Of a stretch of DNA of 64,000 nt, positions 1 through 26,069 are shown in pieces. Positions within the stretch are counted from its first letter, which is position 1, and the number at the start of each line of letters is the position of its first letter. The notes under the pieces were generated by a model that was not told the DNA's origin, ran no database searches, and saw only the letters and a list, made by a program, of their open reading frames with translations. The stretch covers positions 1,984,001 through 2,048,000 of the forward strand of contig NZ_CP100461.1 in the NCBI RefSeq assembly GCF_024228675.1, in the 5' to 3' direction. Source of the DNA: Salinigranum marinum. GTDB taxonomy: Archaea > Halobacteriota > Halobacteria > Halobacteriales > Haloferacaceae. A program made the translations under genes and the position numbers.

Positions 1-271
1 CGGCCTCCTCGGGGATGACGTCGAGCACCTGCGCCTCGGCCTCCCGCGGCGGAGTGAGCACGTCGGGGTCGGGCCGAACCGTGATGCGTTTCCTGAGCTT
101 GGAGGCCAGTTTGCGGATGAGGTCGCCGTTGCGAGCGAACTGCTTGGGATGTCTGGTGTACACCACCAGCTCCGGTCCCTCGTACTTCACGTCCGAAACC
201 GAGATGTCCGTCGGGAGTTCGGCCTCGATCTCTGCTTGTAGATTTTCGAGCTGTTTGTCTACGGAACTCAT
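1..271 (-). CDS. beta-CASP ribonuclease FttA/aCPSF1, N-terminal part (cut by window edge)
   Basis: The visible 90 codons start at an ATG (bases 271-269) and run off the left edge. The peptide begins MSSVDKQLENLQ and contains SVSDVKYEGPELVVYTR followed by a KLASKLRKRITVRP segment. This is the N-terminal KH-type region of the archaeal CPSF1-like protein. The family comprises metallo-beta-lactamase/beta-CASP ribonucleases that bind U-rich 3' ends and act in transcription termination and RNA 3'-end formation. The catalytic domain lies outside the window, so the assignment rests on the well-conserved N-terminus alone. The gene points leftwards, divergent from the next gene. Confidence 0.8.
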   Translation of the reverse strand, partial: MSSVDKQLENLQAEIEAELPTDISVSDVKYEGPELVVYTRHPKQFARNGDLIRKLASKLRKRITVRPDPDVLTPPREAEAQVLDVIPEEA

Positions 272-498
272 AACTGAGAACGATCCGCCCAGCCTGTGGA
301 CGTATCGGGGTCGGGTTCGTCCACCGCCACCTCACCGCGGTCGTCGGCCTCGCCCGCGACGGCGGTCACTCGGGTGGGAGCGGACCGGTGAGGGGAGAGC
401 CGAGAGTGCATTGTCGACTAGGTCAGTAGTGCAGTGTCGTGACTGCGGTGCGGGAAGAGGCAGTGAGAACCCGCTTAGTCGGTTCTATCACCGCGGAG

Positions 499-21662: not shown

Positions 21663-22529
21663 TCAGTCCCGATCGGCGAGGTACGACTGCGTCCGTTCGG
21701 CGACCGCCGACCGGAACGCCCGCAGGTCGACCTCCCCACGCCCCCCGAAGAGGTGGTCGTGGTGTGCGCGGGTGATCGCCGCGACGGTTCGCTCGTACAG
21801 CGTGTCGAACGTCACCGGCCGGCCCTCGGCGCGGACGCGCTCGGCCACCGCCTCGAAGCGGGCGGGCGTGGCGTACCGGCGGGCGAACGCCTCCGCGGGC
21901 GACTCGGCCGCCGGGGCCTCCCCGTCGGAGTCGGCGAGCGCTGTCCGTTCCGAGTCGGTGTCCCCGACGGCCGGGTTGTCGAGGCTGGCGCGGAGTCCCG
22001 TCTTGTTCCGGAGGAGAACGCCAGCGACCGGCCCGTCGTACCAAGCCGACTCCGGGAAGGCGTACGAGTCTGGATCGAAGTCTGCCGCGCGGACCTCGGC
22101 TGCGAGCGTGGGGAGCGGATCGAGCCCGAGCCGGCGGTAGATCTTCTCGACACGATCGGGCAGGAGATACTCCGAGGAGTCCGACCAGACGTCGCTCCCG
22201 AGGAACGAGGGGGTCGTCTCCCAGTCGTAGTCGACGCCGCGTCTGTGCATCGCGTAGCCGAAGAAAACGACCGATTCGACGTCGTCGACCGCCTCGCGGA
22301 GCGCTCCGCGGTCGAACCGCTCGCGGACGTGACGGGCGACGTGGGCGTACGCCGGCGGGACGTCCTCGCCGAACGTCCTGACCGCGTCGCCGAACTGCAG
22401 CCGGCCGTCCGCCCGGGCCTGGAACCGGACCGGTGCGCCGTCGACCAGTTCGTGGAGCCAGAGGTGGCCCCGCTCGAACAGGGCCGACGGGGCCTCGGCC
22501 GCGGACGGACAGGGCAGAAACTCCTTCAT
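21663..22529 (-). CDS. RNA-ligase-fold protein lacking the catalytic residues
   Basis: A 288-residue protein with the layout of the haloarchaeal RNA ligase-like family: GHLWLHELVDGAPVRFQ (residues 21-37), VVFFGYAMHRRGVDYDW (88-103) and PVAGVLLRNKTGLRASL (167-183). In nucleotidyltransferase ligases these correspond to motif I (KxDG), III (FGE), IV (EGxV) and V (KxK). Here Leu28 replaces the lysine nucleophile, Tyr92 the motif III glutamate, Ala169 the motif IV glutamate and Ser182 a motif V lysine. The fold seems kept but adenylylation is unlikely. It is transcribed alone, and the frame is intact with normal codon bias, so this is not a decayed gene. Confidence 0.85.
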   Translation of the reverse strand: MKEFLPCPSAAEAPSALFERGHLWLHELVDGAPVRFQARADGRLQFGDAVRTFGEDVPPAYAHVARHVRERFDRGALREAVDDVESVVFFGYAMHRRGVDYDWETTPSFLGSDVWSDSSEYLLPDRVEKIYRRLGLDPLPTLAAEVRAADFDPDSYAFPESAWYDGPVAGVLLRNKTGLRASLDNPAVGDTDSERTALADSDGEAPAAESPAEAFARRYATPARFEAVAERVRAEGRPVTFDTLYERTVAAITRAHHDHLFGGRGEVDLRAFRSAVAERTQSYLADRD

Positions 22530-22593: not shown

Positions 22594-23286
22594 TTACCGC
22601 CGTCGGCGGGCGACGAACGCGGCGACGAGCGTGAGCGCGAGTGCGGTCAGCGCGATCCCGCCAGCCGGGAGGGCGAACGTGGTCGACGTCGTCTCTGCGT
22701 CGGCGGTCGACGCGGTCGATCCCGCGCCGGCGTCCGCGTCTGCGGCGACGGTCGTGCCGTCGTTCGTGGCGGTGGTGCCGGCGGCGGCGACGGTGACGGT
22801 GCCAGCGTCGCTCGCCGGGCTCATCGAGCCCCCGCCGTCGGTGTCGAACTGGACGGGTGTGAGACTGAGCGTCGTCTCGCCGACCCGCTCCCCGCTCAGT
22901 TCGACCGTGGCGAGGACGACCGCAGAGGCCCCGGGCTGGACGTTCTCGCTCAGATCGGCGGCCTCGAGGGTGACCGTCTTGCCGTCGTCGCCGATCGCCG
23001 GCTCGGACGTCAGTCCGAACGCGTCCGGATAGCTCGCGCCCTCGATGGCCGTCCCGTCACCCTCGACGGAGAGGTCGACCGCGTAGCCGGCGAGTCCCTC
23101 GGGTGCCGACGTGAGGACGACGTCGACCGTGGCGCGCTCGCCGGGCTGGACGGTCGTGCTGGAGACGGTGATCGTGGGGCTGTCGGACTGGGCGGCCGCC
23201 GCGCCGGTCAGCGCCGACGCACAAAGTGCGAGGACGACCGCACCGACGGCGGCGAGTCGAACGAAGTCTGTGTCGTTTGGTGTCAT
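22594..23286 (-). CDS. Membrane-anchored surface protein with a cohesin-like domain
   Basis: A 230-residue exported protein. There is an N-terminal signal peptide (hydrophobic AAVGAVVLALCASALTGAAAA), a cohesin-like beta-sandwich at residues about 37-160 (TITVSSTTVQPGERATV, PEGLAGYAVDLSVEG, GASYPDAFGL), and an Ala/Thr linker. One C-terminal transmembrane helix ends in RRRR. No PGF motif precedes the helix, so it is probably held by the helix itself. The cohesin-like domain resembles the one inside the neighbouring PhoX protein (EGASYPDAFGL against QGADYPDAVGL). It lies 83 bases downstream of the PhoX gene in the same direction, so the two are probably one operon. Confidence 0.87.
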   Translation of the reverse strand: MTPNDTDFVRLAAVGAVVLALCASALTGAAAAQSDSPTITVSSTTVQPGERATVDVVLTSAPEGLAGYAVDLSVEGDGTAIEGASYPDAFGLTSEPAIGDDGKTVTLEAADLSENVQPGASAVVLATVELSGERVGETTLSLTPVQFDTDGGGSMSPASDAGTVTVAAAGTTATNDGTTVAADADAGAGSTASTADAETTSTTFALPAGGIALTALALTLVAAFVARRRR

Positions 23287-23369: not shown

Positions 23370-26069
23370 TCAGTTGCCGCGGTTGCTGGCGACGCCGGCG
23401 TCCTCGTAGAGGGCGACGATGTCGGCGTAGTCGAGGCGGTCGTTCTCGTTGAAGTCGAACGCGCGGGCGTTCGACGTGACGCTCTGGCTCTCGAGGTTGT
23501 TGAACAGCAACACGACGTCGTCGTAGTCGACGCGGCCGTTGCCGTTGACGTCCTCGAAGCGGCCGTCGCCGTCGAGGTCCCGCGGCGTGTTGGGGCTGCT
23601 GCCGACGCTGGAGGGACCGGTGAGCGCCAGCCCCGAGCGGTTCTCGACGTCGATCGCCTGGCCGGCGTCGTCGTCGAGTGAGGCCGCGGTGTCGATGTCG
23701 GTCACGCCCGCACCCATGCCGGCGAGAGTGACGGTCCCGACGACGAACTCGGTGCCCTCGGCCTGCATCGCGGCGTTGGTGTCGGCGAAGCGGAACGTTG
23801 CGGTCGAGGCGTCGTCGGAGACGACCGGCTCCTCGGCGAGGCCGACGGCGTCGGGGTAGTCCGCGCCCTGGATCTCGACGACGTTCGTGTCGGCGACGGT
23901 GACGGAGAACTCGCCACCGGCGAGGCCGTCGGGGACGTGCTTCGCCACGATCTGTGCCTCGACGGAGTCGCCCTGACCGACCGCGACCGAACTCACGTCG
24001 ATCTGGACGTTGGGCTGGTAGACGTACAGGCAGTCGTTGGGGTACGACCGCCGGGACTCGTCGAAGCCGTCCTCACAGCAGAGGACGCGGCCGTCGTCCA
24101 TCACGTAGACGTTGTCGATGTTGCGGACGGCGTCGTTGGCGGCCTCGGGGCCGTCGGTGAAGTCCGGACCGACGATGACCGGTTCGAGTTCGGAGACGGT
24201 GTAGTTCGTGTCGAGTTCGCCGCGGTAGATGACGCCGCCGTCGACGCGGTCCATCCGGACGTCGCCCGTCTCGTCGGCGAGGTCGTCGTTGAACTCGGAG
24301 ATGCCGAAGTAGACGTAGTCGCCGGGACCGGCGTCGTCGCGGCTGTCGACGCCCTCGGCCTTGTTGAACTCGATCGAGGCACCGATCTCCTTGGCCGCGG
24401 CGCGGGTCTCGAGGAACGGCACCTTGCGGAGGTCGTCGTCGACGCCGTCGTGACCGTTCTCCTCGTACTGGGCGGCCCACTCGAGGACCTCCTCGTTGGT
24501 GATGTAGTTCTGGTTACCGTTCTCGATGACCTCGAGGTCGGCCTCCTTGAGTGCCGCGCTGAGGTTGCCGACGACGTCGGTGCCGTCGGCGGTGTGGGCT
24601 TCGAGGTAGTCCAGTTGGGTGACGCCGTCGTACTCCGCGATCCACTCTTCGCACTCCGCGTTGGAGGCGTGGCCCAGCGGGATCCACTCGATCTCGAGGT
24701 TGATCTCGGCCGGGGAGGCGCGGGTTCCGGACTCGGCGACGTTGGCCTCGTCGTTGGTGATCTTCGGCGCGTACAGCGTCCCCTCGACGTCCATCGGGTC
24801 GGCGTAGGAGGGGATCTCCTCGTCGGCGACGAACTTGTAGATGCCCTTGGAGTCGCCGTCGGAGCAGCCGTACACCGTCTTGAGGTCGTTCTGGAAGTCC
24901 GGTGCCTCCCAAGAGGCGCGGCCCATCACGTAATATTTGATGGGCGTGGGTTCGTCGGCCGCGGGGTCGCGGATGTCCACATGGTAGCCGTACCGGTAGG
25001 GGTTCGGGTAGACGTCGTCGATCGGGCTGATGGTGTTGTCGTCGCCCGACTGATCGACCTGGCTCGCGCCGAGGTAGTACGCGAGGAACTCGACACCGGA
25101 CAGCGCCCAGTAGCCCTGGACGTACCAGCTGCTGCCGAGGTCGCCATCGGCGGCGTAGTCGTTGACTGCACCCTGCACTTCGGTCGGGTTCGGACGGTTC
25201 CAGAACTGACACGCCCCGACGAGCCCCTCGCCGCCGTTCTCGACGATGTCACCGACGGTGTTCGTCAGGCTCACGCGCGGGTGCGCGTAGTTCTCCTCGG
25301 AGCTGACCATCGTGTTCCACGGAGAGAGGTCACCGTAGCAGTTGATGCGCGTCCCACCGACGGCGCGGAACGCGTCGGTGTTGACGACGTTCATCGCTTC
25401 GTCGAGGTCGGACTCCCACTCGCCGTCTTCGGTCTGGCTGATCGGGATCCGGCTGACGTTCCCCGGGCTGTTCTCCCAGTTCGTGAAGAGGTATCCCTCG
25501 GTTTCCTCCTCGTTGGTGGCGACGAACTCGTTGCAGTCGGGGTTGGTCGCGGCCGCACCGTACTGGGTGCCCGCGAAGTTGTCCATCGTGATGTCGGTGC
25601 CGTCGGGCGTCTGGGTCACGCCGAGGCGCTCCGTGCCACCGTTGATCGAGTCGCGTCCCTTCCCGAGGTACGTGTACGTCCCCGCGCTGGAACGGATCTG
25701 CCGACGCTGTTCTTCGGTCTTCGGGATCGACAGCTCCGAGAAGTCGTCGTTGCTCCCGTTCAGCTCGAACTGGAAGCCGCTGAAATAGCCCACGCCGGGG
25801 CTGCTGAACTCCCCCTGGTTGTTCTCCTCCGGGTGCTGGTTGCTGTACAGGAGCGAACCGTCCGCGAAGACGAACGGACCGGTGACCTCCGCACCGAACG
25901 CGGTGTTCGAAAACCGCTTCAGGCTCCCCTTCACGCTCGGCGCGCCGGGCGTGTCGTCCTCCTCGATCTCGCTCGCACTGGCGCTTGCTACCCCGCTGCC
26001 CGCCACGCTGGCTCCGAGGGCGGCTGCCACCGATGTGGCCATCAGACTCCGTCGATTTAGATCGACCAT
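23370..26069 (-). CDS. PhoX-type alkaline phosphatase (DUF839) fused to cohesin-like and dockerin-like domains
   Basis: An 899-residue Tat-exported protein. The signal has NRRSLMATS with a hydrophobic stretch to about residue 30. The PhoX/DUF839 domain covers about 45-680. RINCYGDLSPWNT with Cys244 and SSEEN (257-260) matches the metal-binding region of PhoX, a Fe/Ca-dependent phosphomonoesterase. The region 687-815 is a cohesin-like sandwich. Residues about 830-890 hold two dockerin-type calcium loops: DVNGNGRVDYDDVVLL and DFNENDRLDYADIVAL. A TATA box (about 26103-26112) and a 550-base gap lie upstream; phosphate control is plausible but no motif is proven. The product probably releases phosphate outside the cell and docks to a surface partner. 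Confidence 0.92.
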   Translation of the reverse strand: MVDLNRRSLMATSVAAALGASVAGSGVASASASEIEEDDTPGAPSVKGSLKRFSNTAFGAEVTGPFVFADGSLLYSNQHPEENNQGEFSSPGVGYFSGFQFELNGSNDDFSELSIPKTEEQRRQIRSSAGTYTYLGKGRDSINGGTERLGVTQTPDGTDITMDNFAGTQYGAAATNPDCNEFVATNEEETEGYLFTNWENSPGNVSRIPISQTEDGEWESDLDEAMNVVNTDAFRAVGGTRINCYGDLSPWNTMVSSEENYAHPRVSLTNTVGDIVENGGEGLVGACQFWNRPNPTEVQGAVNDYAADGDLGSSWYVQGYWALSGVEFLAYYLGASQVDQSGDDNTISPIDDVYPNPYRYGYHVDIRDPAADEPTPIKYYVMGRASWEAPDFQNDLKTVYGCSDGDSKGIYKFVADEEIPSYADPMDVEGTLYAPKITNDEANVAESGTRASPAEINLEIEWIPLGHASNAECEEWIAEYDGVTQLDYLEAHTADGTDVVGNLSAALKEADLEVIENGNQNYITNEEVLEWAAQYEENGHDGVDDDLRKVPFLETRAAAKEIGASIEFNKAEGVDSRDDAGPGDYVYFGISEFNDDLADETGDVRMDRVDGGVIYRGELDTNYTVSELEPVIVGPDFTDGPEAANDAVRNIDNVYVMDDGRVLCCEDGFDESRRSYPNDCLYVYQPNVQIDVSSVAVGQGDSVEAQIVAKHVPDGLAGGEFSVTVADTNVVEIQGADYPDAVGLAEEPVVSDDASTATFRFADTNAAMQAEGTEFVVGTVTLAGMGAGVTDIDTAASLDDDAGQAIDVENRSGLALTGPSSVGSSPNTPRDLDGDGRFEDVNGNGRVDYDDVVLLFNNLESQSVTSNARAFDFNENDRLDYADIVALYEDAGVASNRGN

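Follow-up and report, generated by a model that had tools for sequence, protein, structure and literature searches.

A probable pseudo-RNA ligase of Salinigranum in a haloarchaeal family that most likely lost its catalytic lysine several times

Results

An intact gene for an RNA-ligase-like protein

The window is the whole stretch of DNA that was analyzed, 64,000 nucleotides in length, and the genome around the gene described here is that of a Salinigranum-type haloarchaeon (4.9 Mb). The gene lies on the minus strand and encodes a protein that we call P0002 (Table 1). Its frame runs unbroken from ATG to stop over 288 codons, and the opposite strand of the same interval also gives a long open frame. 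We favor the minus-strand gene because its GC content at the three codon positions (0.75/0.51/0.90) and its codon-adaptation score (0.72) are similar to those of nine neighboring genes. The intact frame and the normal codon bias of the sequence-only reading of this DNA are thus both upheld. Residue numbers were checked against the translation (28 = L, 92 = Y, 169 = A, 182 = S), which contains three lysines, at positions 2, 129 and 176.

Table 1. Positions in the window of the P0002 gene, its predicted domains and the codons of substituted residues
Feature	Position	Strand	Basis or remark
Putative pseudo-RNA-ligase gene, P0002	21663..22529	minus	ATG 22529, stop 21663-21665, 288 aa
Predicted nucleotidyltransferase (adenylyltransferase-fold) domain, residues 1-194	21948..22529	minus	AlphaFold2 model and structure matches
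Predicted helical C-terminal domain, residues 195-288	21666..21947	minus	Model and T4 Rnl2 alignment
Leu28 codon, motif I catalytic Lys (T4 Rnl2 K35)	22446..22448	minus	Alignments
Ala49 codon, motif Ia region	22383..22385	minus	Arg in 47/52 Lys-bearing members
Tyr92 codon, motif III Glu (T4 Rnl2 E99)	22254..22256	minus	Alignments
Ser112 codon, motif IIIa adenine-stacking Phe (T4 Rnl2 F119)	22194..22196	minus	Alignments
Ala169 codon, motif IV Glu (T4 Rnl2 E204)	22023..22025	minus	Family alignment; T4 match by hand
Ser182 codon, motif V Lys (T4 Rnl2 K225)	21984..21986	minus	Family alignment; T4 match by hand
Ala251 codon, T4 Rnl2 D292 position, C domain	21777..21779	minus	Alignment

Predicted fold and family assignment

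AlphaFold2 gave a model of P0002 with a mean pLDDT of 93.0 and a pTM of 0.88, in which a linker around residues 190-200 is weakly predicted and is followed by helices at 211-287. In VIA comparisons, residues 1-194 of the model matched the Naegleria gruberi RNA ligase (6vt1_A; Z 17.3, 185 residues, rmsd 2.9), and residues 1-190 matched the nucleotidyltransferase domain of T4 Rnl2, gp24.1 (1s68; Z 17.1, 183 residues, rmsd 2.8). Full-length T4 Rnl2 (2hvq; Z 16.9, 252 residues) matched over a span of 1..288 despite an rmsd of 6.5, its helical C domain aligning to the end of P0002, and T4 Rnl2 R266 is retained as R224 in a MAFFT alignment. The model of an intact relative had the same top structure matches. 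As modeled, P0002 is a full T4 Rnl2-like RNA ligase fold, with a nucleotidyltransferase domain and a helical C-terminal domain, so that the ligase-like layout proposed from sequence is borne out. The nucleotidyltransferase fold is also shared with Rnl3 of the Pyrococcus abyssi Pab1020 type (2vug_A, Z 12.0; 5d1o_B, Z 14.5), which differs from P0002 in length and in its N-terminal part; the Rnl3 Lig_C domain was not found in P0002, which matches no Pfam family.

By sequence, P0002 itself is nearly silent. A Pfam search at E up to 10 returned no family, hence no RNA_ligase (PF09414) match; searches of NCBIfam, PADLOC (E up to 10) and PDB sequences gave no matches, and PHROGs gave weak ones only, among them RNA ligase phrog_548 at E 0.017. 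The assignment to the RNA ligase family is made through its relatives: Pfam RNA_ligase was above the cut-off in all five intact or nearly intact relatives tried, and of 93 aligned members (P0002 plus 92 ATG-started proteins of 250-310 aa), 59 gave a match with E no higher than 0.01, P0002 not being among the 59. PF18043 was found in one of these 93 only. When the family profile was aligned by hhalign to the single T4 Rnl2 sequence, the C domain alone aligned, without significance.

Substitution of the adenylate-binding site

The sequence-only reading had placed Leu28, Tyr92, Ala169 and Ser182 at the catalytic sites of motifs I, III, IV and V. An alignment of 30 family members confirms this placement, with K, E, E and K in these columns of the intact relatives. 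For motifs I and III, it holds against T4 Rnl2 as well; for motifs IV and V, where MAFFT placed gaps, the T4 Rnl2 residues were paired with P0002 by hand. P0002 therefore has no lysine at the KxDG position of motif I, and we found three substitutions beyond those listed before, namely F112S in motif IIIa, R49A and A251. In the set of 121 family proteins described below, phenylalanine occupies column 112 in 50 of the 52 members that carry the motif I lysine versus 8 of the 69 that do not; the corresponding counts are 44/52 versus 0/69 for glutamate at column 169 and 43/52 versus 14/69 for aspartate at column 251. The description of every catalytic motif as substituted stands for motifs I, III, IIIa, IV and V. 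Retained, on the other hand, are Glu27, Asp30-Gly31, Arg51, Asp113, Arg174, Lys176 and Arg180.

None of the three lysines of P0002 takes the place of the missing one. K176 is present in all 52 lysine-bearing members, which argues against its being a replacement nucleophile, and with K2 and K129 as the only others, a relocated catalytic lysine is ruled out. P0002 would consequently be unable to form the ligase-AMP intermediate.

We take TbREL1 E159 to be the motif III glutamate and TbREL1 R111 to be a motif Ia arginine. In TbREL1, the motif IIIa phenylalanine sandwiches the adenine, and E159 and R111 are among the ribose-binding residues (available text of PMC4599027). Since the equivalents of these adenine and ribose contacts are substituted in P0002, the ATP pocket, and not the nucleophile alone, appears to be lost. 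It had been suggested that the protein may bind ATP; with the adenine-stacking phenylalanine, the ribose-binding glutamate, the motif Ia arginine and the motif V lysine all gone, P0002 probably binds neither ATP nor AMP.

Distribution of the family and recurrent loss of the motif I lysine

Homologues of P0002 occur in 53 of 99 relatives, and a search of 391 haloarchaeal genomes with an intact member as the query found the family in 206. Counting identical proteins once, we aligned 121 distinct family members, 52 with the motif I lysine and 69 without it. The larger pattern, which goes beyond the single protein first noticed, is a mixed family of intact and lysine-less members across haloarchaea. 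The complete K, E, E, K set is present in 31 of the 52 lysine-bearing members, and all four sites are substituted in 54 of the 69 lysine-less ones, which keep the motif III glutamate in 8 cases, the motif IV glutamate in none and the motif V lysine in 8. Ala169 (52/69) is the only new residue at the pocket sites that is common among them.

On a 121-row tree, built without columns 28, 92, 169 and 182 and without the sequences L130 and L131 (truncated) and L153 (another subfamily), the lysine label changes 12 times (12-14 across bootstrap trees), at least 5 of these changes falling on well-supported branches. A single lysine-less clade lowers the log-likelihood by 325 and is rejected (p-AU 0.000151). 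A second tree of 105 rows, which also omitted T4 Rnl2, 18 family rows that were long or divergent, and the IIIa column, was rooted with gp217 of halovirus HGTV-1 and with L153; it requires 14 label changes, again at least 5 of them forced. The bootstrap had not converged for either tree. One ancient lysine-less clade is thus ruled out by the likelihood test together with the changes on the rooted tree. Loss and gain look alike as label changes; we read them as losses, since the lysine is present in T4 Rnl2 and in the outgroups and a catalytic site is unlikely to be regained. The motif I lysine was most likely lost separately several times in this family, the label changing no fewer than 5 times and most probably 12-14 times.

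Three well-supported groups contain close relatives in both states. At columns 28/92/169/182, L016 reads KEEM versus HEAV in L007/L013; L065 reads KEEA versus QVAV in L088 and REAV in L123; and L095 (KEET) and L107 (KVES) contrast with L096 (QVAT). Independent-pair tests of coupled loss had 5 supported pairs, too few to reach 0.05. Within Salinigranum, the gene is carried by all four genomes examined, each with Leu28 and Ala169, so that these substitutions are beyond chance; the four proteins form one clade in both trees. Whether the substitutions were unique or clade-wide, a question raised by the sequence-only reading, is answered by neither alternative alone: they extend across the genus Salinigranum and recur separately in other lineages.

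Seven proteins (L137, L138, L140-L143 and L145) form a very divergent clade in which every member is lysine-less and the frames are intact; two of its copies are in genome G007. Family copies that are broken (G058:C1:1485284-1486138, in three pieces; G168:C1:78790-79323, with two stops) or truncated (L130, L131) indicate that outright loss also occurs.

Selection on lysine-less members

NG86 estimates of dN/dS were below 1 in 9/9 lysine-less groups (core 0.12-0.39, C domain 0.15-0.54; Salinigranum core 0.28), compared with 0.09-0.19 and 0.10-0.31 in 5 lysine-bearing groups, the groups being hand-chosen and covering 47 of the 121 rows. When conservation was compared between lysine-bearing and lysine-less members, leaving aside the seven proteins of the divergent clade, the four largest drops among 274 columns were at 28 (by construction), 92, 112 and 169. 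By contrast, 31 of the 60 columns conserved in lysine-bearing members keep a value of at least 0.85 in lysine-less ones, including H22, W24, E27, R35, Y101, E145, S161, D165, G166, K176 and R254.

P0002 thus combines an enzyme fold, the loss of catalytic residues and a gene under selection, as in a pseudoenzyme. The selection on lysine-less groups and the neighbor-like codon use agree with the earlier suggestion of a maintained pseudo-enzyme, and we regard it as very likely, judging from these sequence comparisons, that P0002 is catalytically dead and nonetheless selected. The adenylate pocket has been lost selectively, whereas a plain relic would lose pocket and remainder alike, which favors a change of role.

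Other RNA ligases and the gene neighborhood

In the window genome, the family profile (E up to 10) found this gene alone, RNA_ligase PF09414 gave nothing over the cut-off (one weak match, E 0.0167, to a protein other than P0002), and the best match of Lig_C PF18330, located elsewhere, was below the cut-off at E 0.161. RtcB is the one RNA ligase found there. The proposal that P0002 may bind an active partner, and the suggested look for a second active ligase paralogue, therefore end without such a paralogue over the cut-off in these searches.

Other Salinigranum genomes hold further ligase-like genes. L153:2455-3528 (genome G002) encodes a second Rnl2-like ligase of 357 aa with intact EKFDGS, AENL, AEGVVI and RRVKC motifs. 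L177:1258-2394 (G003) and L182:1258-2382 (G001) are Rnl3-like, a label given from length and motifs. Because L153 is missed by PF09414 at E 0.001, absence by this profile is no proof of absence.

Across 94 loci, no neighboring gene cluster recurs in more than 11, and several clusters are apparently antisense frames. Same-strand neighbors look random (upstream 34/72, downstream 37/73), and the immediate neighbors belong to diverse families (123 of 142 listed neighbors scanned). PADLOC at 1e-5, run on these 123 without a background control, matched 35 models, none of the best 25 in more than two proteins. No link of the family to an RNA pathway was found through neighboring genes in the loci examined. 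In Salinigranum, two same-strand genes directly upstream of the ligase-like gene, at 22594-23286 (230 aa) and 23370-26069 (899 aa) on the minus strand of the window, are conserved in all four genomes. TnpB-family genes lie near ligase genes on Natronomonas pharaonis plasmid PL131 (L162:2284-3546) and Haloterrigena plasmid pHTUR01 (L164:2088-3356); this may be chance.

Discussion

Relation to known RNA ligases

P0002 shares both domains with T4 Rnl2 but differs from it in the catalytic lysine and the motif III, IIIa, IV and V residues, and in having no Pfam RNA_ligase match. Within the family, a lysine-bearing Haloterrigena turkmenica protein encoded on pHTUR01 is related to P0002 over its full length at about 50% identity and, unlike P0002, has intact motifs. 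The closest relative that we found outside cellular haloarchaea is HGTV-1 gp217, annotated as an RNA ligase, which is 27.5% identical to the intact member L050 over 99% and matches the family profile across 279 columns (E 1.1e-26); in contrast to P0002, its EKLDG, FGEA, GFD and AEG motifs are intact. A search of viral contigs gave 9 pattern matches and no relative of P0002.

T4 Rnl2 has a second basic residue in motif V that is absent even from the lysine-bearing members (mostly Leu at 184), which are accordingly putative enzymes. To the extent of our literature search, which had most subscription papers outside its reach, no dead RNA ligase has been described in archaea.

A possible role in binding RNA ends, and its alternatives

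Repeated loss of ligation chemistry with retention of the gene suggests a useful job that does not involve ligation. We propose that P0002 descends from a haloarchaeal family of ATP-dependent RNA ligases of the Rnl2 type and would have retained both domains of the fold while its adenylate site was lost. Through the retained nucleotidyltransferase surface and the C-terminal domain, it may hold structured RNA that is broken or nicked, or else a complex of RNA and protein, and it could shield the RNA ends or pass them on to further factors, RtcB for instance. Taken whole, a recurrently formed pseudo-ligase with a noncatalytic RNA-end-binding role is the explanation that we consider somewhat probable. 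Its weakest step is the role itself: RNA-end binding is our best guess for P0002, with about even chances of being right. In the C domain of T4 Rnl2, a salt bridge links R266 to D292 (available text of PMC4599027). Loss of the D292 equivalent, together with the higher dN/dS of the C domain, speaks against the RNA-end role and suggests that RNA binding may be relaxed too. Among the possible roles, we would place RNA-end binding first, a scaffold second and slow decay third.

As a scaffold or subunit, P0002 would use a dead ligase domain as a protein-protein building block. Precedents are the ligase-like part of poxvirus A20 and NF45-NF90, which are pseudo-nucleotidyltransferases of another superfamily. 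The columns conserved in lysine-less members would fit such a use, as would a weak fold match of the model to a chain of the vaccinia polymerase holoenzyme (8q3r_A, E 0.011) and the binding of a partner protein by the C domain of kinetoplastid ligases (available text of PMC4599027). The lack of a conserved neighboring gene at the 94 loci and the random orientation of neighbors count against it, and we hold a scaffold to be a possible but doubtful role.

It is also conceivable, though we think it unlikely, that the ligase is dispensable in many haloarchaea and that its genes are drifting to loss. Slow decay could account for the patchy presence of the family, the broken copies and the often longer branches of lysine-less members, and their weaker core selection relative to lysine-bearing members is what it would produce. 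Against it stand dN/dS values below 1 in every lysine-less group tried, the retention of conserved columns while those of the pocket go first, and divergent lysine-less clades with intact frames.

The RNA-end-binding reading can be widened to the whole family: selection would keep not ligation but a noncatalytic RNA-end binding common to haloarchaea, and the chemistry would have been dropped repeatedly. In a bolder form, the protein would act as a host decoy on cleaved tRNA or other nicked RNA that blocks repair by viral Rnl2 ligases of the HGTV-1 type. We name this boldest reading because gp217, the nearest outside relative that we found, comes from a virus that is reported to encode 36 tRNA genes as well as two ligases of the Rnl2 family (available text of PMC8651126). 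The evidence presented here favors the decoy over no other reading, and we consider the widened reading, the decoy included, improbable.

Two further explanations have very little probability. In a rewired enzyme, another residue would take the AMP, or P0002 would seal pre-adenylated ends only. Such rewiring was proposed for Diplonema DpRNL, with the motif V lysine as the candidate nucleophile (available text of PMC4599027); in hand alignment, L050:1501-2337 and other lysine-bearing members have R-x-K-x-Leu in motif V, like R173-x-K175-x-V177 of DpRNL (R-x-K-x-hydrophobic), and K182 is retained in the 8 lysine-less members counted above, but P0002 has Ser182, no lysine in the domain besides 2, 129 and the shared 176, and has also lost the motif III and IV glutamates and the IIIa phenylalanine. 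A role as the regulatory partner of a second, active ligase paralogue of the cell would fit the 15 of 42 relatives with a fetched lysine-less copy (53 homologue-bearing genomes less 6 with unfetched copies and 5 with the lysine) that by hand count have another RNA_ligase match over the cut-off, for example the Rnl3-like genes of two Salinigranum genomes, but the window genome has no paralogue over the cut-off, nor do the other 27 by the same search, which misses some (G002, among the 27, carries L153), and as a general rule an active paralogue partner is ruled out by these profile searches.

Whichever role applies, an enzyme that became a nonenzyme several separate times, with intact sister species at hand, provides a natural series for the nonligation roles of a ligase. 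The sister pairs (L016 versus L007/L013, L065 versus L088/L123 and L095 versus L096) make the question testable by complementation. There is also a consequence for annotation, in that annotation as RNA ligases is inappropriate for 69 of the 121 distinct family members, P0002 among them. At NCBI, lysine-bearing members are named 'RNA ligase family protein' and the Haloferax members are hypothetical.
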